The notes under the pieces: model-generated
Told to the model about the DNA's origin: nothing
What the model saw: only the letters and a program-made list of their open reading frames with translations
The model's database searches: none
Shown: one piece after another, positions 8,557 to 36,448 of the stretch
Layout of the letters: every line of letters begins with the position of its first letter
How positions within the stretch are numbered: position 1 is the stretch's first letter
Origin: Paracoccaceae bacterium
Lineage (GTDB): Bacteria; Pseudomonadota; Alphaproteobacteria; Rhodobacterales; Rhodobacteraceae
NCBI GenBank assembly: GCA_027484915.1
Contig: JAIXSA010000033.1
Location: 1 to 50,049 of the forward strand
Direction of reading: 5' to 3'
DNA: 50,049 nucleotides
Made by a program: the position numbers and the translations under genes

Positions 8557-8619
8557 GCCCACGCGTGGGCATTGTCTTCGCCTGTGCAAAATCAAAGGCT
8601 TACGCGGGGACATTTACGG
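8557..8619 (+). repeat. Three-copy intergenic element, copy A
   Basis: Copy A lies between the convergent cobT and 967-aa genes. A 14-bp palindrome GCCCACGCGTGGGC (8557-8570) is followed by 17 nt, then AAAATCAA (8588-8595), then 17 nt, then TTTACGG (8613-8619) and TTTAGCAAG. Copies B and C show the same parts at identical spacing. It cannot be a normal promoter for either flanking gene, since both converge on it. The palindrome may also terminate cobT transcription. The function is unknown. Confidence 0.7.
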
Positions 8620-8706
8620 TTTAGCAAGCATGGCGCGTCGGAGATTTCGTCGCTCTTCGCAGGTCGTCTGCGAGGCGGAGACGGCGTTGAATGAGGAGCC
8701 TGTCCG

Positions 8707-11610
8707 TCAGGCCTTCGGCATCTTCAGGCTGATCAGCCGACCACCCTTCTGGTAGCGGACCTCGGTCTCGGTGATCGCCTTGATGGTGCCGCCGTCGATC
8801 TTGTCGCCGACCTTGACCTTCTTGTACTTGCCGTTCGACTGCCGGACCAGCGCATAGCGGCGCGAGTCGGTGCCGTAGGTCCCGATCAGGTTGATCTTCG
8901 ACAAGTTGATCGCATTCGCGAAAGTCGCCTGTTTGGCCACGCTGGCCTTGGTCGGGATCGAGGGTGCGGCGCGCTCAGTCTCGGGCTCGTCGAGTTCGGC
9001 GATCTCTTCGGGCTTGGCATCCGGGGCTGGCGCGGCGGCGGCGACCTCGACTTCGGGTTCCGGAGCAGGCTCGCGGACGGCGGCGGCGACGGCGGCCTCG
9101 ACGGCAGAGGTGAAATCGTTGGGACGCGCAGCGGGCCGCATCGAGATCGCGATGATCGAGGGGTTCTGGGCCTCAAGCGCGGCGGCTTCGGCCAGCTTAG
9201 CCTCGGCTTGGGCGGTCAGCGAGGCGGCCTGCGCGCCCAAGTCGGCGGTTTCGGTCGGGGCGGCGGCGGCTGCGGCGGCGGTCACGCTTGCGGGGCGCGG
9301 CAGCGGGCGCGGGCCAGCGAATTCTGTGGCGGTCTCGGGCGTCAGGGCGGCGTCGTCCGGCAGCGTCGCGGGCACCAGTCCCTCGGGGCGGGGACGGGGG
9401 CGGAAGCCGGCCAGCGCCGGATCGGCGGGCGGCAGCTCGACAGCGGGCGCGCTATCGCCGGCGGTGACAAGCGACGCATCGGCGGTCGTCGCGGCGGCAG
9501 GTGCTGCATCGGCGGCGGGGGCTGGAACGGGCGCGGCCGCCAAGGCGGCGGCCGTTGCGACTTCGCTGCGCGATGGCGGTATGAGGGGCGGCTTCCCTGC
9601 GATGAGGAACACGCCCTCGGGACTCATGATGCCGTCAGGGGTTGGCATCAACAGGCCGTTGGCGTCGAACTTGTAGACAGTGCCGGGGGCCGGGGGCGGC
9701 ATCACCGGATCTGGCAGGGTATCCCGCGTATCGGCCAGGGCGGGCAGGGCGAGAGCGTCAAGCGCCGGGGGCGGCGCCTCCATCGCGGACAGGAAGATTT
9801 CATCCTGATCCTCGACCGGGGCAGCGGCAGCAGAGACATCTGTCGCGACCACCGTATCCGGAGCCGGTTCCGGCGTGGGTTCCGGCGCAAGATCTGCGGT
9901 CGTGGCTTCGGTGTCTTCAACAGGCTGCGCCGCCGGGTCTTCGGTCACGGCCAGGTCGTCTGCGGCTGCGGGGTCAGGCTCGGTCGCGGCGATGTCGGCG
10001 GTGTCCTCCCCGCCCATGTTCACCGGAAGGCTTTCCGTCGCCAGGTCCTCGACGCTGGCAGCTGCCGTGCCCTCGGCCTCGGGGATGGGATCGGTCATCC
10101 CCTCCGGGTCCTGCATGTCGGCCAGCATCTCGTCATCGACGCCCGGCACGACGTCGGTCGCGGCGGCGGTCTCTTCGGTGGGGGCGCCGTTGCCGCCGAC
10201 GAAATACGAGGCCCAGGCCGCGACGAGGGCAAGGAACAGAAGGAGTAGCCCGACCATCACCATGAACACGGTCCCGGTCCGCTTCTTGACGGGGGCTACT
10301 GTGCCGAAGGTGCCGCCGGGGCGGGCGGGGGATTTCACCGTGGTCGGCCCGCCAATGGGGGGACGCGGAATCTCGCTGTTCTTGAGCTTGGGCTTCGCAC
10401 GGGTTCCGGGGATGGTCGGCGAGGTCACAAGGCCGGGGAAGCCCTTGCCGTTGGCGGGACGCGCCGCCGGGGCGGGTCTGGCGCTGGCGGGGGGTGGCGC
10501 GGCGCGGGTCACCCCTTCCATCGGCCGTGCCGCACTTTCGGCGGCGCTGCGGCGGCTGGCGAAGGCGACCATCGCGGCAGAGGGCGGGGCAGGGGGAATT
10601 TCGTCGTCGAGGTCATCGGCCGCGAGCGTTGGCGCACTGGGCGATGCGGCCCGACCGTCGCCTTCGGGGAAGGCGGAGGTGTCGGTGACATGCGCGAAGG
10701 GCGCTTCCTCGGCCTCGGGGGCCGGGGCGGGTTTGGCGGCGACTTCAGGTTCGGCCGCTGGGGGGGCAGGTGGCGCTTCGGCGATGGCTTCGCGTGCCAG
10801 AATCGTCTCTGGCTCTGGCGCGGGGTCCGCATCGACCAGATCGGCGAAAGGATGGGATGAGACCGGCGCGGGGTCCGTTGCTGGCGCGGCCTCTTCAGGA
10901 ACCTCGGCGCTCAGGGCTTCGGCGAGGCCGGGAAGGTCTTCGTCGGCCTGGGGAGAAGGCGCGGCTGCGACCGGTTCCGGCGTGGGCTCAGGTTCAGCGA
11001 CGGGTGGGGCGACCGGCGCCGACGGAGCGGCCTCTTCCTCGCCCGGTTCGGCCTTGGGAAGTTCGCGGTGGAGGATCGAGACCGGCTCGCGGTCGCGGTC
11101 GACGGTTTCGTCTTCGGCCAGGATCGAGGAGGCGGCGGCGCTCGGGCCGAACCAGGGCTCGCCGACAAAGGTGCCCTCCTCGGGGATGGCGACGAACGAG
11201 ACCGGGTTAAGCCGATGTTCGACAGCGAATCCTTCCGCCTGTTCAAGGGTTTCGCGGGCGATGACGGCGACCTTGAGCGTGGTGCCCTTGCCGGACCAAT
11301 CGAAAACCAGATCCTCGACCGCGTAGGGTGTGCGGCCTTCCAGCGCCACGGCGATCTGGCGGCGCTTTTCTTCGCGGCTGGGGCCGGGGGCGTAGATCTC
11401 GGTGTAGAGGATCTGGCTGTTCGGCAGGATCAGTTTGGTCGCGACACCAAGCGGCGACAGACCCAGCGCGGTCTTGCGCAGGTAGTCCATCGCCTCGGGC
11501 AGGTCGGGGGCATCGAAGGCAACCTCGCCGATCGAAAGCCAGCCTTTTGGCGTCCGGTGCAGGAGACCAATGGTCTCGCGGGTCAGGTCAAGGGCAAATG
11601 TCGGTTTCAT
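8707..11610 (-). CDS. Pro/Ala-rich single-pass membrane protein with GspL/PilM-like N-terminus and GspC/PilP-like C-terminus
   Basis: A 967-aa protein I do not recognise by name. Residues 1-175 look like the actin-like fold of GspL/PilM (FALDLTRETIGLLHR; a TPYAVEDLVFDW block). Residues 180-440 are low-complexity Pro, Ala and Glu. One membrane helix lies at about 448-472 (VFMVMVGLLLLFLALVAAW). A second Ala/Pro/Glu-rich stretch of about 420 residues follows, presumably crossing the periplasm. The last 65 residues form a compact beta-rich domain (LIGTYGTDSRRYALVR, KKVKVGDKIDGG) similar to the GspC/PilP homology region. This topology would join cytoplasmic and outer-envelope parts of a secretion or pilus machine in one chain. 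No other type II secretion or type IV pilus genes are nearby. Long antisense frames over the repeats are composition artefacts. Confidence 0.8.
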   Translation of the reverse strand: MKPTFALDLTRETIGLLHRTPKGWLSIGEVAFDAPDLPEAMDYLRKTALGLSPLGVATKLILPNSQILYTEIYAPGPSREEKRRQIAVALEGRTPYAVEDLVFDWSGKGTTLKVAVIARETLEQAEGFAVEHRLNPVSFVAIPEEGTFVGEPWFGPSAAASSILAEDETVDRDREPVSILHRELPKAEPGEEEAAPSAPVAPPVAEPEPTPEPVAAAPSPQADEDLPGLAEALSAEVPEEAAPATDPAPVSSHPFADLVDADPAPEPETILAREAIAEAPPAPPAAEPEVAAKPAPAPEAEEAPFAHVTDTSAFPEGDGRAASPSAPTLAADDLDDEIPPAPPSAAMVAFASRRSAAESAARPMEGVTRAAPPPASARPAPAARPANGKGFPGLVTSPTIPGTRAKPKLKNSEIPRPPIGGPTTVKSPARPGGTFGTVAPVKKRTGTVFMVMVGLLLLFLALVAAWASYFVGGNGAPTEETAAATDVVPGVDDEMLADMQDPEGMTDPIPEAEGTAAASVEDLATESLPVNMGGEDTADIAATEPDPAAADDLAVTEDPAAQPVEDTEATTADLAPEPTPEPAPDTVVATDVSAAAAPVEDQDEIFLSAMEAPPPALDALALPALADTRDTLPDPVMPPPAPGTVYKFDANGLLMPTPDGIMSPEGVFLIAGKPPLIPPSRSEVATAAALAAAPVPAPAADAAPAAATTADASLVTAGDSAPAVELPPADPALAGFRPRPRPEGLVPATLPDDAALTPETATEFAGPRPLPRPASVTAAAAAAAPTETADLGAQAASLTAQAEAKLAEAAALEAQNPSIIAISMRPAARPNDFTSAVEAAVAAAVREPAPEPEVEVAAAAPAPDAKPEEIAELDEPETERAAPSIPTKASVAKQATFANAINLSKINLIGTYGTDSRRYALVRQSNGKYKKVKVGDKIDGGTIKAITETEVRYQKGGRLISLKMPKA

Positions 11611-11770
11611 GTCGCGGGTCTAGCACGGAGTCTGGAGGTGCTGGAACGTCCGCCAGCGGTCCCGCGCAGGTTTAGAGCAGCTTTTCGCCGAAGGGAAGGA
11701 AAACGGCCAAGGAAGTCGTTGCGGCATGCGTCACAACTGCGAAATGTCACGCAAATCGAAGGAGACCCCC

Positions 11771-12463
11771 ATGCGTGTTCTGTCCGCCCTGATCCTGACC
11801 ACCGCGCTGGCTGTGCCGCTGGCCGCCCCCGTCATGGCCGATGAGGTGACCCGAACCATCAGCGTGACCGGCACCGGCACCATCGAGGCGGTGCCCGACA
11901 TGGCGACGCTGATGATCGGCGTGACCACGCAAGGCGCCACTGCCGCCGAGGCGCTGGCCGCGAATTCGAAGGCCACCGATGCGGTGATCGCAAGGCTCGC
12001 GGCCTCCGGCGTCGAGGCGCGGGACATGCAGACGTCGAACCTGTCGATCAACCCGAACTGGACCGGCTATGACAGCTCTACCCCCACGATCTCGGGCTAT
12101 GTGGCGATGAACATGCTGACCGTGCGGGTCCGGGCGCTGGACACCACGGGGGCTGTGCTCGATGCGGCGGTGGCGGACGGGGCCAACACGCTGAACGGCA
12201 TGTCTTTCGGGCTGGCGGACCCCGAGCCCGCCTACGACGAGGCGCGGAAGGAAGCGGTTGCCGATGCCCGCGCCAAGGCCGAGCTCTTAGCCACTGCTGC
12301 CGGGGTCAAGCTAGGGCAGGTCGTCTCGATCAGCGATGCAGGCGCGATGACCGATCCGGCGCCGATGTACCGTGATGCCGTCTCGGCCGCGCCGGTGCCG
12401 GTGGTGGGGGGCGAGCTGGGCCTGGTCGCAAACGTCGCCGTGACCTGGGAAATCGCCGAGTAG
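11771..12463 (+). CDS. SIMPL domain periplasmic protein (DUF541)
   Basis: A 230-aa secreted protein: signal peptide at residues 1-23 (ending APVMADE) followed by one SIMPL/DUF541 domain. Family hallmarks are the start RTISVTGTGTIEAVPDMATL, the alternating strand pattern, and the C-terminal helix EARKEAVADARAKAELLA followed by GVKLGQVVSISD. SIMPL proteins (for example BP26 of Brucella, YggE of E. coli) form large periplasmic or outer-membrane assemblies linked to oxidative stress; the molecular activity is not established. The start at 11771 is supported by a purine-rich GAAGGAGA at 11758-11765. The gene is monocistronic and closed by the hairpin at 12481-12508. Confidence 0.9.
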   Translation: MRVLSALILTTALAVPLAAPVMADEVTRTISVTGTGTIEAVPDMATLMIGVTTQGATAAEALAANSKATDAVIARLAASGVEARDMQTSNLSINPNWTGYDSSTPTISGYVAMNMLTVRVRALDTTGAVLDAAVADGANTLNGMSFGLADPEPAYDEARKEAVADARAKAELLATAAGVKLGQVVSISDAGAMTDPAPMYRDAVSAAPVPVVGGELGLVANVAVTWEIAE

Positions 12464-12480
12464 GCGCACCGGCGCAACAG

Positions 12481-12508
12481 CCGGCGGAAAGCGCGGGGAT
12501 TCCGCCGG
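12481..12508 (+). terminator. GC-rich hairpin after the SIMPL gene
   Basis: A 9-bp perfect stem, CCGGCGGAA paired with TTCCGCCGG, with a 10-nt loop, lies 18 bp after the SIMPL stop. Only a short TT-rich tail follows, so it is an imperfect intrinsic terminator. It separates this gene from the next plus-strand pair. Confidence 0.55.
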
Positions 12509-12582
12509 TTCTGTCATGATTTGGCCCAAGTCGCCGGGCAAACAGGCACAAAAGAAAGCCTGGCCTGAGCAGAGGTTACATT

Positions 12583-13761
12583 TTGTTTCGCAGTCCTCTC
12601 GGGGTGATCATCTTGGTGATTGGTGCCTTGATCGGCATCGGCTTTGCCGTCCTGCGGTATCAGGTCCTGGATGCTTTCATCCCGAAGGAAGCCCTCGCCG
12701 CGATCGAGAAAGCCAGGACTGCCCTTGGCGACGTAGGGGAACTGACCGCGCAGGGGGCCAAGCGTGTCGTTGTCTCTTCGACGAAGGAAGGCCCTGGCCA
12801 GTACCTGATCGACGGTCCAGACGGGCTGAGTGTCGAAGGTCCGATTGCCGCGATGGCGGGTAATTGGCCGGTGTTGATCAGCGACGTGATCGATGGCTAC
12901 GGCACCGAGGTGGGTTCGGATGCGCCGGCGGAGGTGATGACGATCCGGCCCATCTCGGGCTGCCGGCTGACACCGCCGCTGGAGGGGACGGAAGTGGGGC
13001 ATGTCACCGCCGGGGTGACCGGTCTGGACCTGCCGATCCTGACCTACAACGACACCGACCTTGCCGCTGCCGTCCAGCTTTTCGTGAACCTCTACCGGGA
13101 GGCTGGAAATGCCGAGATCAGCCCGCCTGCGGAATTGGCCTACGAGGTCTATGACGTCGCGGTGACCGAAACGCGGGCTCCGGTCTATCTGGTGCTGGAA
13201 AGCTTCGTGCGCAACCGGATATGGAATATCCACCTTGCCCCCGGCGCACGGATCGAACGGGTGGTTCTTCTGGGCGGGATGCATTCCGGGGTGGCAAATC
13301 TGGACCCCGTCGTTCCGGTCGAGGTGTTGCCCAAGTCCGAGATGACCGCCTGCGGGATCGAACCCGCCTATGAGTTGAACCGGGGCCACCGATTCTTCCA
13401 GATCCTGGCGGACGGGAGTGCGACCGAAAAGGCAGAGGCGGAAGCGCGCTACGCGGCCCTGCAGGACGCCATCGCCGCCTACAACACCTGGTTCCGTGAC
13501 AGCTTCGGCGTCGTGGCCGATACCTCGCGGGCGGGGTTCGGCGGCACCATCTCGGTGGTGGGGCCGCAGCCGGGGGCGCAGGATCCCAAAGCCGTCTATG
13601 CCTCGATCCAGGGCTCACGCATCCGGATGACGCAGGATGTTTACGTCGAACTGCAGGGCCAGGTTGCGAAGGGCGAGGATTTTGCTGCGCGCGTCCGGGC
13701 CATTGCCAAGACTTTCGCATTTGGCGATCTGACGACCCTTCGCCAGGGGGTGAAGTTCTGA
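12583..13761 (+). CDS. Membrane-anchored protein of unknown function
   Basis: A 392-aa protein not recognised from any characterised family. It starts at TTG (12583) with AGAGG at 12571-12575. An N-terminal membrane helix (about 5-26, GVIILVIGALIGIGFAVL) would anchor it with the remainder in the periplasm. The body is mixed alpha/beta with four visible blocks: ISGCRLTPPLEGTEVGHVTAG, ILTYNDTDLAAAVQLFVNLY, PGARIERVVLLGGMHSGVANL, and an Ala/Glu helix (430s in nucleotide terms 13425-13480) before FGGTISVVGPQPGAQ. Two cysteines (SGC, TACGIEP) may pair. Its TGA shares a base with the ATG of the next gene, so the two are translationally coupled. Likely restricted to Rhodobacteraceae; that is my inference. 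Confidence 0.8.
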   Translation: MFRSPLGVIILVIGALIGIGFAVLRYQVLDAFIPKEALAAIEKARTALGDVGELTAQGAKRVVVSSTKEGPGQYLIDGPDGLSVEGPIAAMAGNWPVLISDVIDGYGTEVGSDAPAEVMTIRPISGCRLTPPLEGTEVGHVTAGVTGLDLPILTYNDTDLAAAVQLFVNLYREAGNAEISPPAELAYEVYDVAVTETRAPVYLVLESFVRNRIWNIHLAPGARIERVVLLGGMHSGVANLDPVVPVEVLPKSEMTACGIEPAYELNRGHRFFQILADGSATEKAEAEARYAALQDAIAAYNTWFRDSFGVVADTSRAGFGGTISVVGPQPGAQDPKAVYASIQGSRIRMTQDVYVELQGQVAKGEDFAARVRAIAKTFAFGDLTTLRQGVKF

Positions 13762-14546
13762 TGCTGCGGCTTCTGATCGGCACAGGGGTGCTGCTGATGA
13801 CGGTCGGCTTCGGCGCGGCCGGGTGGCAATACTGGCAGTCGTTGCCCAAGTCCGCTCCGGCCGAGCCTGTGGCGGCGGCCGTCGCCGTCCCGGCCCCAGG
13901 TGTGCAAAGCTGGCTGATCTCGCCTGCTGGTGGCCTGATCCCGCAAGCCGAGGTGCAGGCCTATCTTGCGCAGGATCGGTTCGTCCCGACCCGCACGGTC
14001 CGGATTGAGCGTCAGGCGAACCTTGTCGACCTTCTGGCCGCGGGCGAAAAACTGCCCGAGCCGGCCTTCCTGCAGGTCCTGGCCGACATCCGCGCGCCCA
14101 AGGTGGCCGACGGGCTGTGTCCTATCCTGAAAGAGGCGCTGGCCGAGGACTGCGCCGTGCAATCGGCCCGGGTGGTCGAAGGCAGCGTCGATCCGGTGCA
14201 AGGCACCGCGCTGTTCCAGATCGAACTGGTCTATCGGCTGCGGACCGAAGGCGTGGAAATGCCCGACCTTGCGGCGCATGTGCTGCGGTCGGATGACTTG
14301 GCTCTGGACCTTGAGGCGGGGGCCGAGGGCACGGCCAGTCCCGAGGCTGCCTTGCGGGCCACGCTGGCTGCGGTATCCGAAGCCTGCGCGGCCGAAACCG
14401 TGGGGGAAATCTGCCGACCGATGCTGATTGGCTTCGACTGGACGCCAGGACAGCCCGTTTCGGCGCGGGCCGGGATTGCGTGGCTTGACCCGCTGCCGAA
14501 GGGAATGTTCGTGGCCCCGCCGCTGGATACCGCTCCGGGCGGCTGA
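13761..14546 (+). CDS. Membrane-anchored protein of unknown function, partner of the preceding gene
   Basis: A 261-aa protein with an N-terminal hydrophobic segment (residues 3-24, LLIGTGVLLMTVGFGAAGW) that could be a signal anchor, then a Pro/Ala linker and a predicted periplasmic domain. Repeated Cys residues (GLCPILKEALAEDCAV; SEACAAETVGEIC) suggest two disulfides. No known motif is seen. The ATG overlaps the TGA of the upstream gene by one base, so the pair is likely made in equal amounts and may form a complex. The gene ends 14 bp before the convergent metY stop. Function is unknown. Confidence 0.8.
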   Translation: MLRLLIGTGVLLMTVGFGAAGWQYWQSLPKSAPAEPVAAAVAVPAPGVQSWLISPAGGLIPQAEVQAYLAQDRFVPTRTVRIERQANLVDLLAAGEKLPEPAFLQVLADIRAPKVADGLCPILKEALAEDCAVQSARVVEGSVDPVQGTALFQIELVYRLRTEGVEMPDLAAHVLRSDDLALDLEAGAEGTASPEAALRATLAAVSEACAAETVGEICRPMLIGFDWTPGQPVSARAGIAWLDPLPKGMFVAPPLDTAPGG

Positions 14547-14559
14547 GCGGCGGGACGGT

Positions 14560-15849
14560 TCAGGCGGTGGCCTTGGCCAGCGCCTGGTCGAGGTCGGCGA
14601 TGATGTCGCGCACGTCCTCGATCCCGATGGACACGCGCACCGAATCCGGTGCGGCCCCGGCCTTGACCTGGGCGTCCTCGGTCAGCTGTCGGTGGGTGGT
14701 CGAAGCCGGGTGGATGATCAGGCTGCGGGTGTCACCCAGGTTGGCGACATGAGAGAAAAGCTTCACGTTGTCGATCAGCTTCACGCAGGCCTCGTAGCCC
14801 CCCTTGATCGTGAAGGTGAACAGCGCGCCGGGACCCTTGGGCGTGATCATCTTCGCCAGGTTGTGGTAGGGCGAGGACTTGAGGCCCGGATAGGTGACTT
14901 TGCCCACCCGAGGGTCCTGTTCCAGGTATTCCGCGACGATCTGCGCGTTCTCCACATGCCGCTGCATCCGCAGGGCCAGCGTCTCGATCCCCATCAGCGT
15001 GTAATGCGCGCCCTGCGGGTTCATGGTCATCCCAAGGTCGCGCAAGCCGATGGCGATGGAGTGGAAGGTGAAGGCCATGTTGCCCAGCGTCGGATGGAAG
15101 ACGAGGCCGTGGTAGGCGGGCTCGGGCTGGGAGAGGGAGGGAAACTTGTCGTCCTTCGACCAGTTGAAGTTTCCAGAGTCCACCACGATCCCGCCGGTGA
15201 CGGTGCCGTTCCCGGTCAGGTACTTCGTGGCCGAATGGACCACGAGCGTCGCGCCGTGCTCGATGGGGCGGCAAAGGTAGGGCGACGCTGTAGTGTTGTC
15301 GACGATCAGCGGGATGTGCGCCTGGTTCGCCACGCGGGCGATGGCGGGAAGGTCGCTGAGCGCGCCGCCGGGGTTGCAGATCGTCTCGCAGAACAGGGCG
15401 CGGGTGTCGGCGTCGATAGCGGCCTCGATGGCTTTGGGGTCGTCGAAGTCGACGAACTTGGCGGACCAGCCGAACTTGCGTATCGTGTTGGAAAACTGCT
15501 GGATCGTGCCGCCGTAGAGCTTGGTGGAGGCCACGATGTTGCGGCCGGGGGCCATGATCGGGAAGAGCGCCATGATCTGCGCCGCGTGGCCCGAGGAGCA
15601 GGCGATGCCGCCCGCGCCGCCTTCGAGGGCCACCACGCGGTTCGCAAGCGCGGACACGGTGGGGTTCGTCAGGCGGGAGTAGATGTAGCCGACCTCTTGC
15701 AGGTTGAAGAGCTTGGCCGCGTGGTCGGCGTCGCGGAAGACGAAGGCGGTGGACTGGTAGATCGGAACCTGCCGGGCGCCGGTGGCGGGGTCCGGCGCGG
15801 TGCCGGCGTGAATGGCAAGCGTCTCGAAGCCGAGGGGTCTGTCGGTCAT
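14560..15849 (-). CDS. metY: O-acetylhomoserine aminocarboxypropyltransferase (sulfhydrylase)
   Basis: A PLP enzyme of the Cys/Met-metabolism family, 429 aa, matching the length of O-acetyl-L-homoserine sulfhydrylases rather than the shorter cystathionine enzymes (about 390 aa). It makes homocysteine from O-acetylhomoserine and sulfide in the cytoplasm. The PLP lysine is K209 in HSATKYLTG. YSRLTNPT (about 57-64) supplies the phosphate-binding Tyr/Arg of the neighbouring subunit, and GGAGGIACSSGHAA forms the cofactor loop. A strong GGGAGGA precedes the ATG at about 15855-15861. It is monocistronic, and its 220-bp upstream gap holds copy B of the three-copy element. No SAM riboswitch structure is evident there. 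Confidence 0.94.
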   Translation of the reverse strand: MTDRPLGFETLAIHAGTAPDPATGARQVPIYQSTAFVFRDADHAAKLFNLQEVGYIYSRLTNPTVSALANRVVALEGGAGGIACSSGHAAQIMALFPIMAPGRNIVASTKLYGGTIQQFSNTIRKFGWSAKFVDFDDPKAIEAAIDADTRALFCETICNPGGALSDLPAIARVANQAHIPLIVDNTTASPYLCRPIEHGATLVVHSATKYLTGNGTVTGGIVVDSGNFNWSKDDKFPSLSQPEPAYHGLVFHPTLGNMAFTFHSIAIGLRDLGMTMNPQGAHYTLMGIETLALRMQRHVENAQIVAEYLEQDPRVGKVTYPGLKSSPYHNLAKMITPKGPGALFTFTIKGGYEACVKLIDNVKLFSHVANLGDTRSLIIHPASTTHRQLTEDAQVKAGAAPDSVRVSIGIEDVRDIIADLDQALAKATA

Positions 15850-15910
15850 GGGGTCCTCCCTTGTTTGGGGCGAGGGTAGGGGGGAACGGGGCGGCTGGCA
15901 ACGGGGAGCT

Positions 15911-15973
15911 CGCCACGCGCGGCGCGTTTCGCCGAGATAAGGAAATCAATGGCTTGGGCTCGGGCGTTTACGG
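15911..15973 (+). repeat. Three-copy intergenic element, copy B
   Basis: Copy B lies in the divergent gap between metY and the VOC gene. The palindrome-like CGCCACGCGCGGCG (15911-15924) is followed by 17 nt, GAAATCAA (15942-15949), 17 nt, and TTTACGG (15967-15973). The parts and spacing match copies A and C exactly. It is about 60 bp upstream of metY and 100 bp upstream of the VOC gene, so a regulatory role is possible here. Confidence 0.7.
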
Positions 15974-16069
15974 AAGATTCATCTTTTCCCGGAGGTTGTG
16001 GGAGAAGGAACATTGCGGGTGCGGGGCATTCCGTGGTTGGTTTGACCGCGCCTTTCCCGGAGACAAACG

Positions 16070-16483
16070 ATGCTGACCCCCTTCCACCTTGCCTATCACG
16101 TCACCAGCCTTGAGGAGGCGCGGGCCTTTTTTGGTGGGGTCCTGGGCTGCCGCGAGGGGCGGTCGACCGAGACCTGGGTCGATTTCGACTTCTTTGGCCA
16201 CCAGATCAGCCTGCATCTGGGGACGCCGTTCGCCACCACGAACACTGGCAAAGTCGGGGACAAGCTGGTGCCGATGCCGCACCTGGGGCTGGTGCTGCAC
16301 CTGCCGGCCTGGAAGGCGCTGGCGGACCGGCTGACAGCGGCGGGGGTGGAGTTCGTCCTGCCGCCGCAGGTCCGATTCGAGGGGCAGCCGGGGGAGCAGT
16401 GGACGATGTTCTTCCGGGACCCGTCGGGCAACCCCATCGAGGTGAAGGGGTTCGCGCGGATGGAGGCGGTCTTCGAGGGGTGA
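16070..16483 (+). CDS. VOC family protein (glyoxalase/bleomycin-resistance/dioxygenase fold)
   Basis: A 137-aa vicinal-oxygen-chelate protein with the two beta-alpha-beta-beta-beta modules of the fold. Candidate metal ligands are His6 or His10 (PFHLAYHV), the His pair in FGHQISLHLG, a His in VPMPHLGLVLHL and the Glu of GNPIEVKG near the C-terminus. The reaction cannot be assigned; members include glyoxalases, dioxygenases and resistance proteins. GGAGA at 16059-16063 supports the ATG at 16070. A degraded copy of its 3' end lies 43 bp downstream, pointing to an old tandem duplication. Confidence 0.9.
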   Translation: MLTPFHLAYHVTSLEEARAFFGGVLGCREGRSTETWVDFDFFGHQISLHLGTPFATTNTGKVGDKLVPMPHLGLVLHLPAWKALADRLTAAGVEFVLPPQVRFEGQPGEQWTMFFRDPSGNPIEVKGFARMEAVFEG

Positions 16484-28690: not shown

Positions 28691-28705
28691 GTTAATGGTA
28701 TTAAC
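28691..28705. promoter_or_regulatory. Palindrome upstream of the Tat-exported protein gene
   Basis: GTTAAT-GGT-ATTAAC is a perfect 6-bp inverted repeat in an AT-rich stretch of an otherwise GC-rich genome, 18-32 bp upstream of the minus-strand ATG at 28673. Position and symmetry suggest an operator; the binding protein is unknown. Confidence 0.5.
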
Positions 28706-28839
28706 ATCGCATGGATTACGGACGATTTCGAGCGATTCCTTCCGGCAACAAACCGGTTTGGTCAGAAATGTCACAAAGCAGCCGTCTGGATGCCGTTTTT
28801 AACTTCCATACCAAAGATAGGTTGACTGCGCCTTGGGCC

Positions 28840-28856
28840 CAGATAATCGGTATCTG
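28840..28856. promoter_or_regulatory. Palindrome upstream of the glycan operon
   Basis: CAGATA-ATCGG-TATCTG, perfect 6-bp arms, ends 9 bp before the ribosome binding site (GGAGG at 28865-28869) of the first gene in the operon. A TTGACT lies 13 bp further upstream (28822-28827), but no good -10 follows at 16-18 bp. It could be an operator over the transcription start. Confidence 0.45.
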
Positions 28857-28874
28857 CGTAATATGGAGGCTGCA

Positions 28875-29231: not shown

Positions 29232-29242
29232 CAGGCGGCCAG

Positions 29243-31480: not shown

Positions 31481-33330
31481 CAGAGTTCCGGGAGATCCTG
31501 GTCCTGGGGTTGGGCCGGTCGGGGTCGAACCTGCTGGCGTCTATTCTGCGCAACCTTCGCGGCAACGCGGGCTTCTTCGAGATCTACTTCGAAACACAGT
31601 CTCAGGGTCTGAAGCATTTGCCGGAGGTGCTGGAGCATCTGGCGCAGTCCCTTGGTGTCCCGGCCGCACAGGATTCCCCAGAATTGGTGGCCGCCCGGGA
31701 TGCCGATCCGGTGGGATACTTCGAAAAGCTTTCCAGCGCGGCCCGCGCGCTGGGCTACCAGTCGATGAGCTGCAAGATATTCGCGCGCCAGATCACGAAT
31801 GAGACGCTTGAAGCCTTGCTGAAACGTCCGAACATCAGCGTCGTCTTCCTGAGCCGAGGCCGGATCGAGCGTTACATCTCGGCCCTGAAGGGTCAGATCA
31901 CCGGGCAGTATACCGGAAAGGATACGACCGATTTACGCCCGGCGCTTTCCCTTATGCAATTCCTGACCATGTCGTTCAAGAACGACCGGGAACTGGAGGC
32001 AATGCATGAGACGGTCCTTGCCAGCGGCGTGCCAATCGGTCGGCTGATCTACGAGACTGATCTCGACATCGAAGAGAGCCTGCGGATCGAACGGGTCACG
32101 GACGCGCTGCGAGCGGCGGCGGTCGAGCCGGACTTCGCGCGGACCGCAACCGACAAATGGGTGGTCAAGCAGGATGCCAACCGCGACTGGCGCGACAAGA
32201 TCGCGAATGGGTTCGAGATATCGGCAGCGCTGGCGGGATTGGGGCTTTTGGCCTATGCCGAAGGCGCGCCGCTGGATGACCGGCCGTTGCGGAAACCTGC
32301 CAAGGCCGCTCAGGCTGCGCCCCCGAGAGACGACAGTCTGTTGGACCAGGGCGGCTACAACATCGCGGTGTCGGCCGATCCGGTCATCACCTTCACGGCG
32401 ATCCAGTACGGCCGATCCTTCATGGCCGAGTGGATGGCGGGGCCGGACCCGGCATTCGGCAGACGGCACGGCGTGCATTTCCTGAAGCCGACCTGGACGA
32501 TGGAGACGACCGACTTGCGCCCCCTGGCCGAAACCCTGCGCCGGGCCGAGGCCTGCAATCCGGGTAACAACTTTGTGGCGATGCATGTCTCGGACCGCGA
32601 AGCGCAGAAATACCGCGAGGTCGGAATCCCTTCGGTGCCGGGCAATCCGAACATCTTTACCAACGAGGCCCATTTTGTCGGTGAAGCAGTCGCTCATCCG
32701 GACCTACCCGAAAGCGACGCGATCTATGTCGCGCGTTTGGCCCCCTGGAAGCAGCACGAGCTGGCCTCTGGGCTGCGGGACCCGCTGTTCATCTATGGTG
32801 ACCCCGTAGATCCATCCGAAGCCGAGCAATTCGAACGGCTGCGGGGTCAGTTCCCGCTGGGGTCCTTTATCAACCACCGGCTGGGCAAGGGGCGGTATCA
32901 TTATCTTGGGCGGCAGGAGCTGGCGTCCGTCATGGCGCGGACACGGGTTGCCCTGGCGCTGAGCAGCGAGGAAGGCTGCATGCGGGCTTCGGTCGAGTGT
33001 CTGCTGGCGGGCCTGCCCATGGTGTCGGTGCCCTCGATCGGGGGGCGGGACCTGTTGTTCACCTCGGACACCGCGCTGATCGTGGAACCGACGCCGGACG
33101 CGGTTCGCGCTGGGGTGGAAGCGATGCTGGCCCGGGGCCTTGGCCGCGACGAGGTGCGCCGTCTGACACTGGACCGCGTCCGCCAGGAACGGCAGCGCTT
33201 TCTGGAGGCGGCGAATCGTCACGTCGCCAGCAAGCTTGGCCCATTTGCGCCAAGACTGAAGATGGAACCACTGCTGGATTTCACCATCCGGTATGTTCCC
33301 CTGCGCAAGATGATCGAGGGACTGGCATGA
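31477..33330 (+). CDS. Sulfotransferase-glycosyltransferase fusion protein
   Basis: A 617-aa two-domain protein. Residues 1-260 resemble PAPS-dependent sulfotransferases: LGLGRSGSNLLASILRN (about 10-26) is the 5'-phosphosulfate loop, and VVFLSRGRIERYISALKG (about 124-141) carries the Arg/Ser of the 3'-phosphate site. A linker rich in Ala and Lys follows, then a GT-B type glycosyltransferase from about residue 294 (PVITFTAIQYG) to the end, with SSEEGCMRASVECLLAGLP near 494 as the nucleotide-sugar binding block and GGRDLLF after it. Such a fusion would add both a sugar and a sulfate to the same glycan. The start at 31477 gives an ATGA overlap with the upstream gene and has GGAGAG just before. 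The next gene again overlaps by ATGA. Confidence 0.8.
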   Translation: MTEFREILVLGLGRSGSNLLASILRNLRGNAGFFEIYFETQSQGLKHLPEVLEHLAQSLGVPAAQDSPELVAARDADPVGYFEKLSSAARALGYQSMSCKIFARQITNETLEALLKRPNISVVFLSRGRIERYISALKGQITGQYTGKDTTDLRPALSLMQFLTMSFKNDRELEAMHETVLASGVPIGRLIYETDLDIEESLRIERVTDALRAAAVEPDFARTATDKWVVKQDANRDWRDKIANGFEISAALAGLGLLAYAEGAPLDDRPLRKPAKAAQAAPPRDDSLLDQGGYNIAVSADPVITFTAIQYGRSFMAEWMAGPDPAFGRRHGVHFLKPTWTMETTDLRPLAETLRRAEACNPGNNFVAMHVSDREAQKYREVGIPSVPGNPNIFTNEAHFVGEAVAHPDLPESDAIYVARLAPWKQHELASGLRDPLFIYGDPVDPSEAEQFERLRGQFPLGSFINHRLGKGRYHYLGRQELASVMARTRVALALSSEEGCMRASVECLLAGLPMVSVPSIGGRDLLFTSDTALIVEPTPDAVRAGVEAMLARGLGRDEVRRLTLDRVRQERQRFLEAANRHVASKLGPFAPRLKMEPLLDFTIRYVPLRKMIEGLA

Positions 33331-33638
33331 TCGCATTCTACAGCCCTGAAGGCTCCGCCTTGCGCGCCTTGCAGCCATCGCCGAGCGCAATTGCCGCAAT
33401 CTGGTATCAGGCCGTCCACGATGGACGCGTCGACTGGGTGGACTGGGTGCGGGACGAACTTGCCGGCCAGCTTGGCGATGCCGATCTGGCGGCGATGCGC
33501 TTTGTCGAGGCGGCCATCAACGGCGAGGTCAAGCGTGCGCAGCAGCTGTGGGCCGTCCTCGGCTCATTCCCCGTCTCAGGACGGGAAAGCCACTTTGCCC
33601 GCGCCGCCCGCGAGTTGCGTGCATCCTTGCCGTTCTGA
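33327..33638 (+). CDS. Small cytoplasmic protein of unknown function, last gene of the glycan operon
   Basis: A 103-aa protein with no signal peptide or membrane helix and no recognised motif. It has Trp-rich helical segments (AIWYQAVHDGRVDWVDWV) and an Arg/Ala-rich C-terminal helix. It begins in the ATGA overlap with the sulfotransferase-glycosyltransferase gene, so it is translated in step with it and may be a subunit or chaperone. The gene ends 12 bp before the 3' end of the convergent tRNA-Tyr gene, with no clear terminator between. Confidence 0.72.
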   Translation: MIAFYSPEGSALRALQPSPSAIAAIWYQAVHDGRVDWVDWVRDELAGQLGDADLAAMRFVEAAINGEVKRAQQLWAVLGSFPVSGRESHFARAARELRASLPF

Positions 33639-33650
33639 TCGGACTTGGGA

Positions 33651-33734
33651 TGGTGGGCGATCCTGGAATCGAACCAGGCATGAGTCGCCTCGGCGGAGTT
33701 ACAGTCCGCTGCCACACCTTGTAGCATATCGCCC
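33651..33734 (-). tRNA. tRNA-Tyr (anticodon GTA), class II, CCA encoded
   Basis: Read on the minus strand: acceptor GGGCGAT/ATCGCCC, anticodon stem GCGGA/TCCGC around the loop CTGTAAC (anticodon GTA), a 14-nt variable arm with GAG/CTC pairing as expected for class II tRNA-Tyr, T arm CCTGG-TTCGATT-CCAGG, discriminator A and an encoded CCA (33651-33653). The D arm is unusually short: GCTAC/GTGGC with only AAGGT as loop, or a 4-bp stem with a 7-nt loop. The 84-nt gene is divergent from the RlmB-type methyltransferase gene. Confidence 0.95.
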
Positions 33735-33866
33735 ACTGCGGCGTCGTGTACTCAAGGGGGAGGGGGGCGTCAAGGGTGCTCGCACGGGGGATTGGCGAAG
33801 ATTTCGGCTTGCATCCGGCACGCTGTCCAAGCCAAGGTCCGGGCTGGTTTTCGAAGGGTTCAGGAC

Positions 33867-34655
33867 ATGGCAGCGGGCGGCAAGAAACCGGCCTGGGTGG
33901 TGGAAAAAGAGCGTGGCGAACGCCGCGAGGCGCGCGAGACGGTCTGGCTGTTCGGCCTGCACGCGGTGCGCGATGCGCTGATGAACCCCAAGCGCGAAAA
34001 GCTGCGGCTGGTTCTGACGAAGAACGCGCTCGACAAGCTGGAGGCGGCAGTCGCGGCCTCGGGCCTGGCGCCGGAAGTGGTCGAGCCGCGGCATTTCAAC
34101 GTTCCGATCGACGAAGGCTCGGTCCACCAGGGCGCGGCGGTCGAGGTCAGGCCGCTCAACTGGGGGAAGTTCACCGACGTCTGCGCGGCGGGTGAGGGGC
34201 TGCCGCTGGTCGTGCTTCTGGACCGGGTGACCGACCCGCACAACGTGGGCGCCATCCTGCGGTCGGCCGAGGTTTTCGGGGCGCGGGCGGTGATCGCGCC
34301 GAAGCACCATTCTGCACCCGAGACGGGTGCCCTTGCCAAGACCGCAAGCGGCGCGCTGGAGCGGCAGCCCTATCTGAAGGTCACCAACCTTTCCGAGGCG
34401 ATGGAGGCGTTGAAGGACATGGGCTTCACCCTGATCGGTCTGGATGGCGAGGCGACTGTCACCCTGGACGCCGCCGTGGCCGGGGTGGGTGGGCGTCCCA
34501 TCGCGCTGGTTCTGGGCGCGGAAGGTCCGGGGCTGCGAGAAAAGACGCGGGAAACCTGCGATGTGCTGGCGCGTATTCCCTTTGCCGGGGCTTTCGGCAG
34601 CCTGAACGTCTCGAACGCGGCGGCGGTGTCGCTTTATGCGGCGACGCGGACGTGA
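33867..34655 (+). CDS. rlmB: TrmH-family 23S rRNA 2'-O-methyltransferase (RlmB-like)
   Basis: A 262-aa SPOUT methyltransferase that 2'-O-methylates a guanosine of 23S rRNA with S-adenosylmethionine; E. coli RlmB acts on G2251. A basic N-terminus (AAGGKKPAWVVEKERGERRE) precedes a substrate-binding domain, LFGLHAVRDALMNP near residue 30. The catalytic knot carries the three SPOUT motifs: NVGAILRSAEVFGA, LVLGAEGPGLREKT and PFAGAFGSLNVSNAAAV. The ATG at 33867 is chosen over one at 33792 because the longer form has no family-like sequence. It is followed by the structured leader at 34659-34803. Confidence 0.92.
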   Translation: MAAGGKKPAWVVEKERGERREARETVWLFGLHAVRDALMNPKREKLRLVLTKNALDKLEAAVAASGLAPEVVEPRHFNVPIDEGSVHQGAAVEVRPLNWGKFTDVCAAGEGLPLVVLLDRVTDPHNVGAILRSAEVFGARAVIAPKHHSAPETGALAKTASGALERQPYLKVTNLSEAMEALKDMGFTLIGLDGEATVTLDAAVAGVGGRPIALVLGAEGPGLREKTRETCDVLARIPFAGAFGSLNVSNAAAVSLYAATRT

Positions 34656-34658
34656 TCA

Positions 34659-34803
34659 CGTCTTTGAGACGGGTCTTCAAACCCGACCCCGCCTTCCTAA
34701 ATGACAGTGAAGAGGCACGGGACCGGAACCCCGTACTTCTCTTCACTGTCCCTCGTTCCGCGACTTGGCGCCCGAGGTTATCCTTGGGCGCCATTTTCTT
34801 TTT
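34659..34803 (+). ncRNA. Structured leader or small RNA with four successive hairpins
   Basis: In 145 nt between rlmB and the CoA-binding protein gene four inverted repeats follow each other: CGTC-tttga-GACG (34659-34671), GGGT-cttcaa-ACCC (34671-34684), a 12-bp perfect stem GACAGTGAAGAG/CTCTTCACTGTC (34703-34714 with 34739-34750) that encloses an inner stem ACGGG/CCCGT, and the intrinsic terminator at 34767-34803. This is more than a terminator needs and resembles a cis-acting attenuator or a free-standing small RNA. No known riboswitch class was recognised. Confidence 0.5.
34767..34803 (+). terminator. Strong intrinsic terminator directly before the CoA-binding gene
   Basis: An 11-bp stem GGCGCCCGAGG/CCTTGGGCGCC (two G-U-type pairs) with a TTAT loop spans 34767-34792 and is followed by ATTTTCTTTTT. 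It ends at the ribosome binding site GGAG (34804-34807) of the next gene, whose ATG is at 34813. Transcription entering from rlmB should stop here unless the terminator is regulated. Confidence 0.85.
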
Positions 34804-34812
34804 GGAGTCCCC

Positions 34813-35220
34813 ATGCCAAGCGACGCCGACATCCGTGACATCCTGACATCGGTGAAGACCATCGCCCTGGTCGGCTGGTCGCCAAAACCCGACCGACCGA
34901 GCCACCGGGTGGCGGAGTTCCTGAAGCGCAAGGGCTACCGGGTGATTCCGGTGAACCCGGGCCACGCCGGGCAGCAGGCGCTGGGCGAGACGGTGGTGGC
35001 GACGCTGGCCGAGGCGGGGCAGGTCGACATGGTCGACATCTTCCGCCGGAGCGAGGAAGCGGGGGCCGTCGCCGACGAGGCAGTGCGGATCGGCGCGAAG
35101 GTGGTCTGGATGCAGATCGGTGTGGTCGACGAGGCTGCGGCGTCGCGGGCGCGGAATGCGGGTCTGCGGGTCGTGATGAACCGCTGTCCGGCGATCGAGA
35201 TCCCGCATCTGGGTTTGTAG
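34813..35220 (+). CDS. CoA-binding domain protein (YccU-like)
   Basis: A 135-aa protein of the CoA_binding_2 family, a small Rossmann fold related to succinyl-CoA synthetase alpha. TIALVGWSPKPDRPSHRVAE (about 14-33) is the nucleotide loop, GYRVIPVNPGHAG follows, and KVVWMQIGVVDEAA and VVMNRCPAIE near the C-terminus are typical. Members bind CoA; the cellular role is not established. The ATG at 34813 with GGAG at 34804 is preferred over 34765, which lies inside the terminator. Because the terminator ends just before the ribosome binding site, expression may be controlled by attenuation. Confidence 0.9.
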   Translation: MPSDADIRDILTSVKTIALVGWSPKPDRPSHRVAEFLKRKGYRVIPVNPGHAGQQALGETVVATLAEAGQVDMVDIFRRSEEAGAVADEAVRIGAKVVWMQIGVVDEAAASRARNAGLRVVMNRCPAIEIPHLGL

Positions 35221-35226
35221 GGCCTG

Positions 35227-35275
35227 CAAAATCCTTGAGTAAGGATTTTGGCAAATTTCTTACTTAAGAAATTTG
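35227..35275. repeat. Tandem AT-rich 24-nt hairpins between convergent genes
   Basis: Two perfect hairpins, each with 10-bp arms and a 4-nt loop: CAAAATCCTT-GAGT-AAGGATTTTG (35227-35250) and CAAATTTCTT-ACTT-AAGAAATTTG (35252-35275). They fill the gap between the CoA-binding gene and hisE and likely act as bidirectional terminator. The second resembles the inverse of the first. A pair of the same design occurs at 43032-43077. Confidence 0.8.
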
Positions 35276-35277
35276 GG

Positions 35278-35583
35278 TCAGCGCCCGGCTTTCTCGGCGA
35301 TGCCCGAGGTGCCTTCGCGGCGCTCAAGCTCGGCCAGCACGTCTTCCAGCGAAACGTCGCGCGCGGCGAGCATGACGAGGAGGTGGTAGAGCACATCTGC
35401 CGCCTCGGCTGTCAGGCGGGCGCGGTCGCCCTTCACCGCTTCGATGATCGCCTCGACGGCCTCTTCCCCGAACTTCTCGGCGCATTTCTCTGGCCCCTTG
35501 GAGAGAAGCTTGGCGGTCCAGGAGGTCTCGGGGTCCGCGCCCTTGCGGGAGGCGATGGTGGCGGCGAGTTTTTCCAGGCTCAT
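35278..35583 (-). CDS. hisE: Phosphoribosyl-ATP pyrophosphatase
   Basis: HisE hydrolyses phosphoribosyl-ATP to phosphoribosyl-AMP and pyrophosphate, step two of histidine synthesis. The 101-aa all-helical protein shows the MazG-like acidic helix [17 protein letters not shown] (about 37-53) and [19 protein letters not shown] (about 59-77), whose Glu and Asp residues bind magnesium. It is separate from HisI here. The ATG overlaps the TGA of hisF by 4 bp. It is followed by the tandem hairpins at 35227-35275. Confidence 0.95.
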
Positions 35584-36341
35584 CACAGCCTCACGGGGAT
35601 GCCGGCGGCGGCCATGTGGGCCTTGGCCTGACCGATGGTGAAGGTGCCGAAGTGGAAGATCGAGGCGGCGAGGACGGCGGAGGCGTGGCCCTCGGTGATG
35701 CCCTCGACGAGGTGGTCGAGCGTGCCGACGCCACCGGAGGCGATGACGGGGATGTCGACCGCGTCGGCGATGGCTCGGGTGAGGGGGATGTTGAACCCTG
35801 CGCGGGTGCCGTCGCGGTCCATAGAGGTGAGGAGGATCTCGCCTGCGCCCTTGGCGGCCACGGTGCGGGCGAAGTCGACGGCGTCGATCCCGGTCGCGCG
35901 GCGGCCGCCGTGGGTGAAGATCTCCCATTTGCCGGGGGCAGTGGTCTTGGCGTCGATGGCGACGACGATGCACTGGCTGCCGAACCGGTCGGCGGCCTCG
36001 GCCACGACATCGGGGCGGGCCACGGCGGCGGAGTTGAAGCTGACCTTGTCGGCGCCTGCGAGGAGGAGCTTCCGGACGTCCTCGGGCGTCCGGACGCCAC
36101 CACCGACGGTGAGGGGCATGAAGCACTGCTCGGCGGTGCGGGTGACGAGGTCGTACATGGTGGACCGGTTGTCCTCGGTCGCCATGATGTCGAGGAAGCA
36201 GAGCTCGTCCGCGCCGGCGGCGTCGTAGGCCTTCGCGGCCTCGACCGGGTCGCCAGCGTCGATCAGGTCGACGAAGTTGACACCCTTCACCACGCGGCCG
36301 TCGGCCACGTCGAGGCAGGGGATGATGCGGGTCTTGAGCAT
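35583..36341 (-). CDS. hisF: Imidazole glycerol phosphate synthase, cyclase subunit
   Basis: HisF is the TIM-barrel cyclase that, with ammonia from HisH, converts PRFAR to imidazole glycerol phosphate and AICAR. The 252-aa protein has the catalytic aspartates in [15 protein letters not shown] (D11 type) and IVVAIDAKT (D130 type), plus phosphate-binding GGGVRT and ASGGVG loops. It overlaps hisE by 4 bp. Its partner hisH lies about 6 kb away at 42.4-43.0 kb on the same strand, because other genes separate the his genes. Copy C of the three-copy element lies 45-107 bp upstream. Confidence 0.96.
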
Positions 36342-36385
36342 GGCGGAGGAATGCCGCGTGGGGGGCGGAAAAGCAAGCGGGATTG

Positions 36386-36448
36386 CGCCGCGCGTGGCGG
36401 GCTTTGCGGGCCTTGGAAAATCAAGGGGTTGGTTGTGGGCGTTAACGG
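36386..36448 (+). repeat. Three-copy intergenic element, copy C
   Basis: Copy C: CGCCGCGCGTGGCG (36386-36399), 17 nt, AAAATCAA (36417-36424), 17 nt, TTAACGG (36442-36448), then TCTGGTAAGG. It lies between the hisF start and the end of the DUF2867 gene, both minus-strand, so in minus orientation it sits 45 bp upstream of hisF and overlaps the DUF2867 stop codon. Confidence 0.7.

Follow-up and report, generated by a model that had tools for sequence, protein, structure and literature searches.

The window analyzed here, a 50,049-nucleotide stretch of a Tabrizicola genome (3.84 Mb), carries three copies of an 84-bp element, all of whose parts are read on the forward strand. Using a covariance model with filters off, we found exactly three full-length copies in the window, scoring 61–75 bits; the next-best match there, a 31-base partial of 12.4 bits, is the hairpin of copy 2 on the opposite strand. 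Copy 1 (8551–8634, 61.2 bits) lies in the convergent gap between a cobT-like gene (7541–8548, forward strand; cobT-like on the basis of DBI_PRT) and a gene on the reverse strand (8707–11610). Its hairpin, TGCCCA-CGCG-TGGGCA (8556–8571), stands 7 nt past the cobT-like stop codon and is followed by the IHF consensus AATCAAAGGCTTA (a putative site, 8590–8602) and by a right arm, TTTA-N7-GCAA (8613–8627). Beside this copy and outside the element is another repeat, F2 (8636–8701, forward strand), which forms a long but imperfect inverted repeat; F2 and copy 1 invert together, in place. The F2 pattern matches at these positions but, taken alone, occurs in the window no more often than expected by chance. 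Copy 2 (15905–15988, 73.4 bits) occupies a divergent gap between genes at 14560–15849 (reverse strand) and 16070–16483 (forward strand), with its hairpin at 15910–15925, the putative IHF site AATCAATGGCTTG at 15944–15956 and the right arm TTTA-N7-TTCA at 15967–15981. Copy 3 (36380–36463, 75.3 bits) is found between a hisF-like gene (35583–36341, reverse strand; PF00977, HisA/HisF family) and a DUF2867 gene (36442–37179, reverse strand), the 3' end of which it overlaps; its hairpin is at 36385–36400, the putative IHF site AATCAAGGGGTTG at 36419–36431 and the right arm TTAA-N7-GTAA at 36442–36456. An initial annotation of these three gaps had listed a palindrome, a middle box and a TTTACGG box at constant spacings, in a convergent (8.6 kb), a divergent (15.9 kb) and a co-directional (36.4 kb) context. 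Boxes, spacings and contexts are as it described them, but the unit extends further, to a second, TTAA-like box.

The element had been presented as a three-copy one and a genome scan had been proposed; run in that form, the scan revealed about 125 copies instead of three alone. The covariance model returned 125 full-length matches at E ≤ 1.2e-5 and five further matches that are partial and weak (of 1987 candidates from the first look, 150 were scored), and the box pattern, with up to three mismatches, hit 42 genome sites versus none for the reversed pattern, which excludes chance. A local three-copy duplication is rejected by the genome-wide copy number, and the observation of a repeated gapped element is confirmed and larger than first described. 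Thirteen of the 125 copies, all scoring 44.8 bits or less, were left out, giving 112 analyzed copies; column counts were made on 101 of these, excluding the 11 that are not exactly 84 nt long.

The 42 box-pattern sites align without gaps, and CCRCGCGYGG falls at identical columns in 38 of them, though the hairpin was absent from the search pattern; the remaining four have variant palindromes at the hairpin columns. When a spacing of 10–60 nt was permitted between CGCGYGG and WATCAANNNNTTR, the 54 of the 112 analyzed copies that fit both strings had spacings of 21 nt (51 copies) or 20 nt (3 copies). This fixed spacing, together with a layout that is kept in other genera despite mostly different hairpins, bears out the suggestion that selection acts on the geometry. 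The accompanying claim, that recent duplication is not the cause, also holds: pairwise identity among the 101 copies has a mean of 0.58 and a maximum of 0.88, it drops to background immediately outside the element, and only 2 of 5050 pairs exceed 0.85.

A known Rfam RNA was rejected, since none of the Rfam 15 models reached its gathering score in the window. Viral sequences scanned with CGCGYGGN{20,28}AATCAANNNNTTG gave at least 80 matches, those listed spanning 40–48 nt with no cluster at 41, whereas lengths for the same pattern in the genus cluster at 41 nt; we read the listed viral matches as chance and reject a phage-borne element. In a search of 84,980 species, the strict pattern was found in 55 stretches, 14 of them in named Rhodobacteraceae, including seven Tabrizicola; the others look like scattered chance matches.

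Each element consists, in order, of a GC hairpin, a linker, AAATCAANGGNTTG and two boxes, TTNA-N7-TTAA. AAATCAANGGNTTG includes WATCAANNNNTTR, which we take to be the IHF consensus (the same string also occurs in the literature); the middle box first noted is conserved, as claimed, but is merely the left part of this longer motif. Exact WATCAANNNNTTR is present in 52 of the 101 full-length copies and AATCAANNNNTTG in 47 of the 112 analyzed copies; genome-wide, 48 of 60 AATCAANNNNTTG sites lie downstream of one of two hairpin types, so that a large share of IHF specific sites may be at gene ends rather than at promoters. IhfA and IhfB are both encoded in this genome, above NCBIfam cut-offs. The hairpin loop is CGCG in 101 of the 112 copies, and the stem, 6–7 bp in Tabrizicola copies, is imperfect, with 73% of cells paired. 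RNAalifold predicted only two pairs on 42 copies, perhaps because these are a mixture of several stem types. Across the 84 columns there is no second palindrome, so that each element has a single hairpin, and the consensus fold contains no pairing between the element ends of the kind that terminal inverted repeats would give.

Genes were called by a crude codon-usage script, in which starts are uncertain and stops firmer. The upstream gene is oriented toward the hairpin in 78 of 105 copies, with the hairpin starting a median of 2.5 nt past the stop codon and within 10 nt of it in 71 of the 78. Among 98 copies (six that overlap a predicted gene and eight with a missing neighbor being excluded), 44 lie between convergent, 51 between co-directional and 3 between divergent genes; convergent gaps are enriched (Fisher p 1.6e-6) and divergent gaps depleted (Fisher p 6.9e-9), and 95 of the 98 adjoin at least one gene end, that is, an end of a gene rather than of a transcript. 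These orientations do not fit a standard promoter, as the initial annotation had argued from the three gaps; with the weakness of the T tract, they also led us to reject promoter-only and terminator-only readings.

The proximity to stop codons could reflect an RNA device, in which the post-stop hairpin ends transcription or shields the trimmed end of the mRNA, with termination helped by a roadblock of IHF bound downstream, an explanation that we consider possible but improbable. It would account for the stem covariation score and paired-cell percentage, which are higher than in any of the 500 shuffles or any slid control (shuffles were not exceeded by two of five covariation measures, namely pairs changed on both sides and further pair types), and for the somewhat larger number of Ts among the six positions after the stem in gene-following copies (3.18, versus 2.52 in other copies; p 0.054). 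In genomes G089 and G230, moreover, CTTT(T) often comes after the hairpin and the stop-codon rule applies as well, the upstream gene reading in for 17 of 20 copies, 15 of these within 14 nt. However, only 21 of the 68 gene-following copies have at least four consecutive Ts after the stem, and in G011 an A-rich tract (GAAAATC) takes the place of the T tract in 7 of the 39 copies listed. Furthermore, 27 of the 105 copies have no gene reading toward the hairpin, and one such site, the divergent site of copy 2, is occupied in 16 of the 19 species regions (weakly in two). Pairing is alike with or without an incoming gene (4.99 and 4.84 of six stem pairs), which speaks for a function in DNA rather than one confined to the 3' UTR, and one would not expect ordinary terminators to share one stem-loop sequence within a species or to have an IHF site at a fixed distance.

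Within the genus, copies are kept at orthologous sites, and the hairpin is for the most part of one type throughout a species. Five of 20 species have no match at the convergent site of copy 1, and at the hisF-like site of copy 3 the element is recognizable in only 13 of 30 loci. At the copy 2 site, the IHF core with its preceding A is the best conserved of eight stretches in 16 sequences (0.89 mean pairwise identity, versus 0.54–0.73 in the flanks), while the hairpin, at 0.67, is not above the left flank (0.71–0.73); this profile leaves out G004, G005, G013 and G026. Copies are few in G002 (1), G026 (3), G013 (5) and G027 (7), which indicates that the element is dispensable, and these genomes also have fewer AATCAANNNNTTG sites (6, 12, 17 and 18, respectively, versus 60 here). 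Sites without the element, for example in G026 and G013, were read by eye and define no clean empty site. A number of observations count against the reading favored here: the hisF-like site of G018, a CGCG-type genome (20 to 1), has a CGG-type hairpin; in G023 the two types are mixed (6 to 10); strict matches of either hairpin type number no more than one in eight of the 32 genus genomes and fewer than eight in G028 and G030; and the element is missing or unrecognizable at part of the orthologous loci of copies 1 and 3, as given above. On a poorly resolved two-gene species tree, we saw no clustering of hairpin types. In other genera the hairpin is mostly different, while the IHF core, the right arm and the layout are kept: strict WATCAANNNNTTR is present in 18 of 20 copies, and 18 of 20 match at least six of the eight box letters, one of the 20 having a perfect TTAA-N7-TTAA.

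The roughly 125 dispersed copies and their scarcity in some species, hairpins that are nearly uniform within species and differ between them, as in REP families, and the inversion of copy 1 along with its neighboring repeat would also be consistent with a selfish or formerly mobile REP- or MITE-like repeat without host function, the IHF site and boxes having served an old transposition complex. We regard this as unlikely, given the scarcity of near-identical copies, the retention of copies at orthologous sites and an IHF core that is better conserved than its flanks at the one site measured. In addition, the Y1/RAYT transposase (PF01797) was above cut-off in none of the 32 genus genomes and below it in two (G017 and G023), while 5 of 14 control genomes were positive, so that a RAYT-driven REP is rejected; and no conserved GTAG or CGTC tag stands unpaired next to the stem in the alignment of copies, the CGTC letters of G089 and G230 being inside the stem.

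The right arm matches TTAA-N7-TTAA at six or seven of eight letters in 87 of 101 copies, versus 0.13% of intergenic positions, and 7 is the best spacer between its boxes. The box originally given as TTTACGG is conserved in position, but that is one of several forms (TTCA 41, TTTA 25, TTAG 24, TTAA 6 and others 5 of 101); the second, TTAA-like box, 11 bp past it, is part of the conserved unit. The two boxes appear close to a CtrA/OmpR-type site. A plain CtrA site is argued against by the lack of a perfect TTAA-N7-TTAA in any of the 101 copies in this genome and by the scarcity of TTAA in box 1 (6 observed versus 22.6 expected). A cell-cycle element to which CtrA and IHF bind jointly, as at alphaproteobacterial replication origins, its copies tying chromosome organization to the cell cycle, seems highly improbable, also because most copies, unlike full CtrA sites, are not placed like promoters with respect to a gene. 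In its favor, the right end is similar to the CtrA variant TTAACCAT, one of the motifs in the consulted part of PMC6180460, whose references include a paper titled on the CtrA and IHF sites of two origins.

The IHF consensus, its conservation across species, the right arm and the position at stop codons lead us to lean, with modest confidence, toward a DNA-level element at gene 3' ends, organized as a putative IHF nucleoprotein complex. IHF would bind the central WATCAANNNNTTR site and bend the DNA by about 160 degrees, bringing the hairpin or palindrome, about three helical turns upstream, beside the two boxes, about two and three turns downstream; this arithmetic of helical phase applies to one geometry. 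The boxes may be read by an OmpR-family regulator, for example CtrA, and the complex would mark or insulate the end of a transcription unit, via nucleoid folding or supercoil buffering, the hairpin possibly shaping the mRNA 3' end as well. Uniformity of the hairpin within a species could come from copying between copies or from a trans-acting partner. The earlier reading of the element is supported by these results; it had left both a protein complex and an RNA structure open and had missed the IHF consensus, the second box and the stop-codon rule. A role in DNA alone leaves the abutment of hairpins on stop codons unexplained.

More tentatively, and with more doubt than belief, we propose a Rhodobacteraceae-specific node of three parts (hairpin, IHF bend and OmpR/CtrA-type double box) at about 125 transcription-unit ends, the hairpin of which is read by a putative trans-acting factor. 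As the loci are fixed while the hairpin is rewritten genome-wide between species, the factor, if it exists, would have to change together with its many targets, and a comparison of gene variants with hairpin type over the genus could reveal it. Apart from this proposal, a small element that changes in concert without leaving its loci offers a good model for concerted evolution in which no transposition is visible.

The RIB/RIP elements of E. coli, which have an IHF site between two REP units in opposite orientation, are reportedly IHF-binding BIMEs (Boccard and Prentki, 1993, are said to have described them as such), and we know of no settled function for them. The element resembles them in having an IHF consensus inside a repeat and in adjoining gene ends; it differs in that a single hairpin takes the place of the two REP units around the IHF site, in its conserved right arm (TTNA-N7-TTAA), in a hairpin within a few nucleotides of the stop codon and in the lack of a RAYT above cut-off, and it belongs to another bacterial class. 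It is set apart from E. coli RIBs by description; on our reading it would work in the manner of the RIB/RIP class but probably arose independently of it. With a rigid counterpart in another class, and with its hairpin naturally variable between orthologous loci, the question of function becomes testable across species. Alphaproteobacterial CGTC-tagged REPs, in the portion of PMC3733652 consulted, are likewise short palindromes without a dedicated transposase, but they have an unpaired CGTC, TGTC or CCTC tag, 8–9-bp stems and 4–5-nt loops and are mostly head-to-head dimers, whereas the element has 6–7-bp stems, is untagged, occurs mostly as single copies and carries a putative IHF site at a fixed distance. 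The Correia/NEMIS repeats of Neisseria, one form of which has an IHF site and binds IHF in vitro, are also dispersed small repeats, but they are MITE-like and 107–155 bp long, and the part of PMC2229807 that we drew on describes no hairpin layout abutting stop codons. According to the same part of that source (PMC2229807), the Caulobacter CIR repeats are an alphaproteobacterial intergenic family with a stem-loop; they carry GANTC motifs, whereas the element described here carries a putative IHF site.

On re-reading, the boxes and spacings that the initial annotation had described in three gaps were present in all three, and the genome scan it had proposed for the gapped motif returned many more copies. 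Using a two-box pattern that excluded the hairpin (AAATCAANGGNTTN11TTTACGG, at most three mismatches), we matched 42 places in the window's own genome (3.84 Mb, 173 contigs), while the reversed pattern, used as a control on the same genome, matched none. Although the hairpin was absent from the pattern, CCRCGCGYGG stands at the same columns in 38 of the 42 matches and a variant palindrome in the remaining four; all 42 align without gaps over 84 columns. A covariance model built from these matches, with which 150 of 1987 first-look candidates were scored, identified 125 full-length copies in this genome (E ≤ 1.2e-5) and five weak partial matches. The designation "three-copy" is thus accurate for the window, where the model finds exactly three (8551–8634, 15905–15988 and 36380–36463), but not for the genome. 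Identity between copies falls to background just outside the element.

The hairpin (columns 6–21) consists of a stem of six pairs and a loop; among 112 copies from the window's genome, the loop belongs to the CGCG type in 101, to the CGG/CGC type in 4 and to neither in 7. Taken as seven pairs, the stem is paired in 73% of cells; its covariation score and paired percentage exceed those of all 500 shuffles and of every slid version, but two measures, pairs changed on both sides and further pair types, were not above shuffles. A linker with a T-rich patch (columns 22–38) leads to the core (columns 39–52), AAATCAANGGNTTG, containing WATCAANNNNTTR, which we take to be the IHF consensus. This string occurs in published papers and is present exactly in 52 of 101 full-length copies. 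The window contains four matches to WATCAANNNNTTR on both strands, three being the three copies; the only other strict match (TATCAATAGCTTA, minus strand, 48824–48836) has no element copy by the covariance model. AATCAANNNNTTG occurs 60 times in the genome, 44 times after a CGCG-type and four times after a CGG/CGC-type hairpin, and is contained in 47 of the 112 copies; the element-poor genomes of the genus (G002, G026, G013, G027) have 6 to 18 such sites. The genome encodes both IhfA (158.8 bits, cut-off 120.25) and IhfB (156.8 bits, cut-off 119.95), and IHF bends DNA by about 160 degrees (PMC9820253).

The right arm comprises TTNA (columns 63–66) and TTAA (columns 74–77), 7 nt apart and 11 bp from start to start. 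The full CtrA site is TTAA-N7-TTAA (PMC6180460): six or seven of its eight letters are present in 87 of 101 copies, versus 0.13% of intergenic positions, and 7 is the best-scoring spacer, yet none of the 101 copies is perfect. The first box is TTCA, TTTA or TTAG, TTAA being rare (6 seen versus 22.6 expected from column frequencies, 101 copies), which looks like avoidance of a perfect CtrA-type site; perfect sites do occur in G089, a relative's genome. By arithmetic from the alignment, hairpin, core and boxes are centred at roughly 0, 3, 5 and 6 helical turns, a spacing that is suggestive only. Variant forms were also seen: in G011, the AT patch after the hairpin exists in two opposite versions, mostly T-rich (e.g., GATTTTTCG) and GAAAATC in 7 of 39 copies, and at the hisF-like site of G005 (locus L417) the element seems to have lost the IHF segment, its hairpin being fused to the right arm.

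Gene contexts were assigned with a simple codon-usage gene finder to the 112 of 125 copies that had flanks. Among the 98 with two clear neighbours, 44 are convergent, 3 divergent and 51 co-directional, the last reading with the genes in 29 cases and against them in 22. A comparison of gaps ≥60 bp long within these loci showed that those with the element (45 convergent, 52 co-directional, 3 divergent) differed from those without it (16, 58 and 36, respectively): convergent gaps are enriched for the element (Fisher p 1.6e-6) and divergent gaps depleted of it (p 6.9e-9). For 78 of 105 copies, the preceding gene reads into the hairpin, and the median distance from its stop codon to the hairpin start is 2.5 nt (≤10 nt in 71 of the 78). 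The other 27 hairpins are upstream of an opposite-strand start codon, by 40–100 nt in 21 cases.

The main alternative to a DNA-level role, that the element is an RNA 3′-end device, explains this stop-codon rule better than our preferred reading, and is consistent with T being slightly more frequent in gene-following copies (p 0.054). However, it leaves the 27 copies outside 3′ UTRs unexplained, and accounts neither for the weak T tracts (four Ts in just 21 of 68) nor for the fixed distance to the IHF site.

A match to the cobT-like gene was present in 31 of 32 genus genomes; 20 of these were picked and their orthologous regions taken. Of the 19 regions that extend to the divergent site (copy 2), 16 carry the element there with its orientation unchanged, two of the matches being weak (G007, E 1.5e-4; G005, E 0.006). 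Across a set of 16 sequences from this site, mean pairwise identity is 0.89 in the IHF core, 0.77 in the boxes and 0.67 in the hairpin, with 0.51–0.53 in the linkers and 0.54–0.73 in the flanks. Matches at the hisF-like site (copy 3) came from 13 of 30 loci, counting that of the window itself; a further GGAAACCCGATGGTTAACGCC-like motif after the element is common there to several species (e.g., G022, G015, G009).

At the convergent site (copy 1), the element has the window's orientation in 2 of 20 species (G020, G001) and the opposite one in 13 (one a weak match: G031, E 0.006), with no match in five. In nine species the whole gap aligns to that of the window when inverted, scoring 73–108 where shuffled sequences reach at most 44; G020 (123) and G001 (131) align without inversion, G026 gives a partial match in that orientation (52 versus 36), and the other eight are ambiguous. 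By eye, the hairpin is usually a few nucleotides from the stop of whichever gene precedes it. The gap also holds F2 (8636–8701), a second dispersed repeat that takes the form of a long, imperfectly matched inverted repeat (CTCGTCGNNGACTTCGTCNCTCCTCGCG ... CGACGAGGAGACGAAGTCGAACGAGGAGC) and whose orientation flips between species along with that of copy 1. F2 also lies downstream of the element at L005, L008 and L015, and occurs in panel loci L192–L211; an arm pattern of it follows within 200 nt in 5 of 112 copies on the same strand and 2 of 112 on the other. A GGGGATATTTGGGCCAGNATGAAAGG-like sequence, perhaps yet another 3′-end repeat, follows 7 of the 112 elements within 250 nt and precedes none.

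The covariance model matches all 32 genus genomes (E ≤ 0.01), at least 74 times in 14 of them, a few times in G026 (3), G013 (5) and G027 (7), and once, at chance level, in G002. Loops of the CGCG and CGG/CGC types that precede an IHF core, counted strictly, number 44 and 4 in the window's genome, 36/0 in G001 and 45/0 in G020, versus 0/39 in G011, 0/18 in G008, 0/16 in G022, 1/17 in G021 and 2/18 in G009; reversed controls gave none. With "mainly" defined as at least eight hits, ≥84% of one type, nine genomes are mainly CGCG, twelve mainly CGG/CGC, one (G023) is mixed and ten have fewer than eight hits. Hairpin type is thus largely a property of the genome, G023 and the hisF-like site of G018 being exceptions. 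On a poorly resolved two-gene tree, no fewer than three changes of the CGCG label are required by the well-supported branches alone. The hairpin thus appears to have undergone rewriting at many loci, on more than one occasion.

Outside the genus, 10 of 29 genomes gave matches (best E 5.4e-4), which we take as chance. In a draw of 198 genomes from the family, 12 matched at E ≤ 1e-5: besides the window's genome and G001, ten from other genera. In twenty copies read from six of these genera, strict WATCAANNNNTTR is kept in 18 and the double box has six or seven letters in 17 and all eight in one. Their hairpins are mostly unlike those of the window's genome (e.g., GGCGTCCCACGGTGGGACGCT or GCGTCCGAGCTCGGACGC), a G095 copy with CCCACGCGTGGG being an exception. 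The stop-codon rule also holds in G089 and G230, the upstream gene reading in at 17 of 20 copies (15 of these within 14 nt).

Beside the observed parts, geometry, position, persistence and species-specific hairpins, we propose that IHF would bind the core and bend the DNA, that the hairpin may thereby contact the boxes, and that the element could insulate or fold the end of a transcription unit. No Rfam family matched the window, and no Y1/RAYT transposase scored above cut-off in the 32 genus genomes (two had a match below it). In the literature covered, which includes few subscription papers, we found no description of the element under REP/BIME/IHF, repeats of Rhodobacter, Rhodobacterales or Tabrizicola, IHF and termination, or CtrA and IHF. 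The RIB/RIP class of E. coli has a REP on each side of an IHF site. This class is the closest known in behavior, since both carry an IHF site at the 3′ ends of genes, but a REP on each side is absent here. We therefore call the element IHF-BIME-like but distinct: by analogy, it would work like an IHF-BIME without being one.
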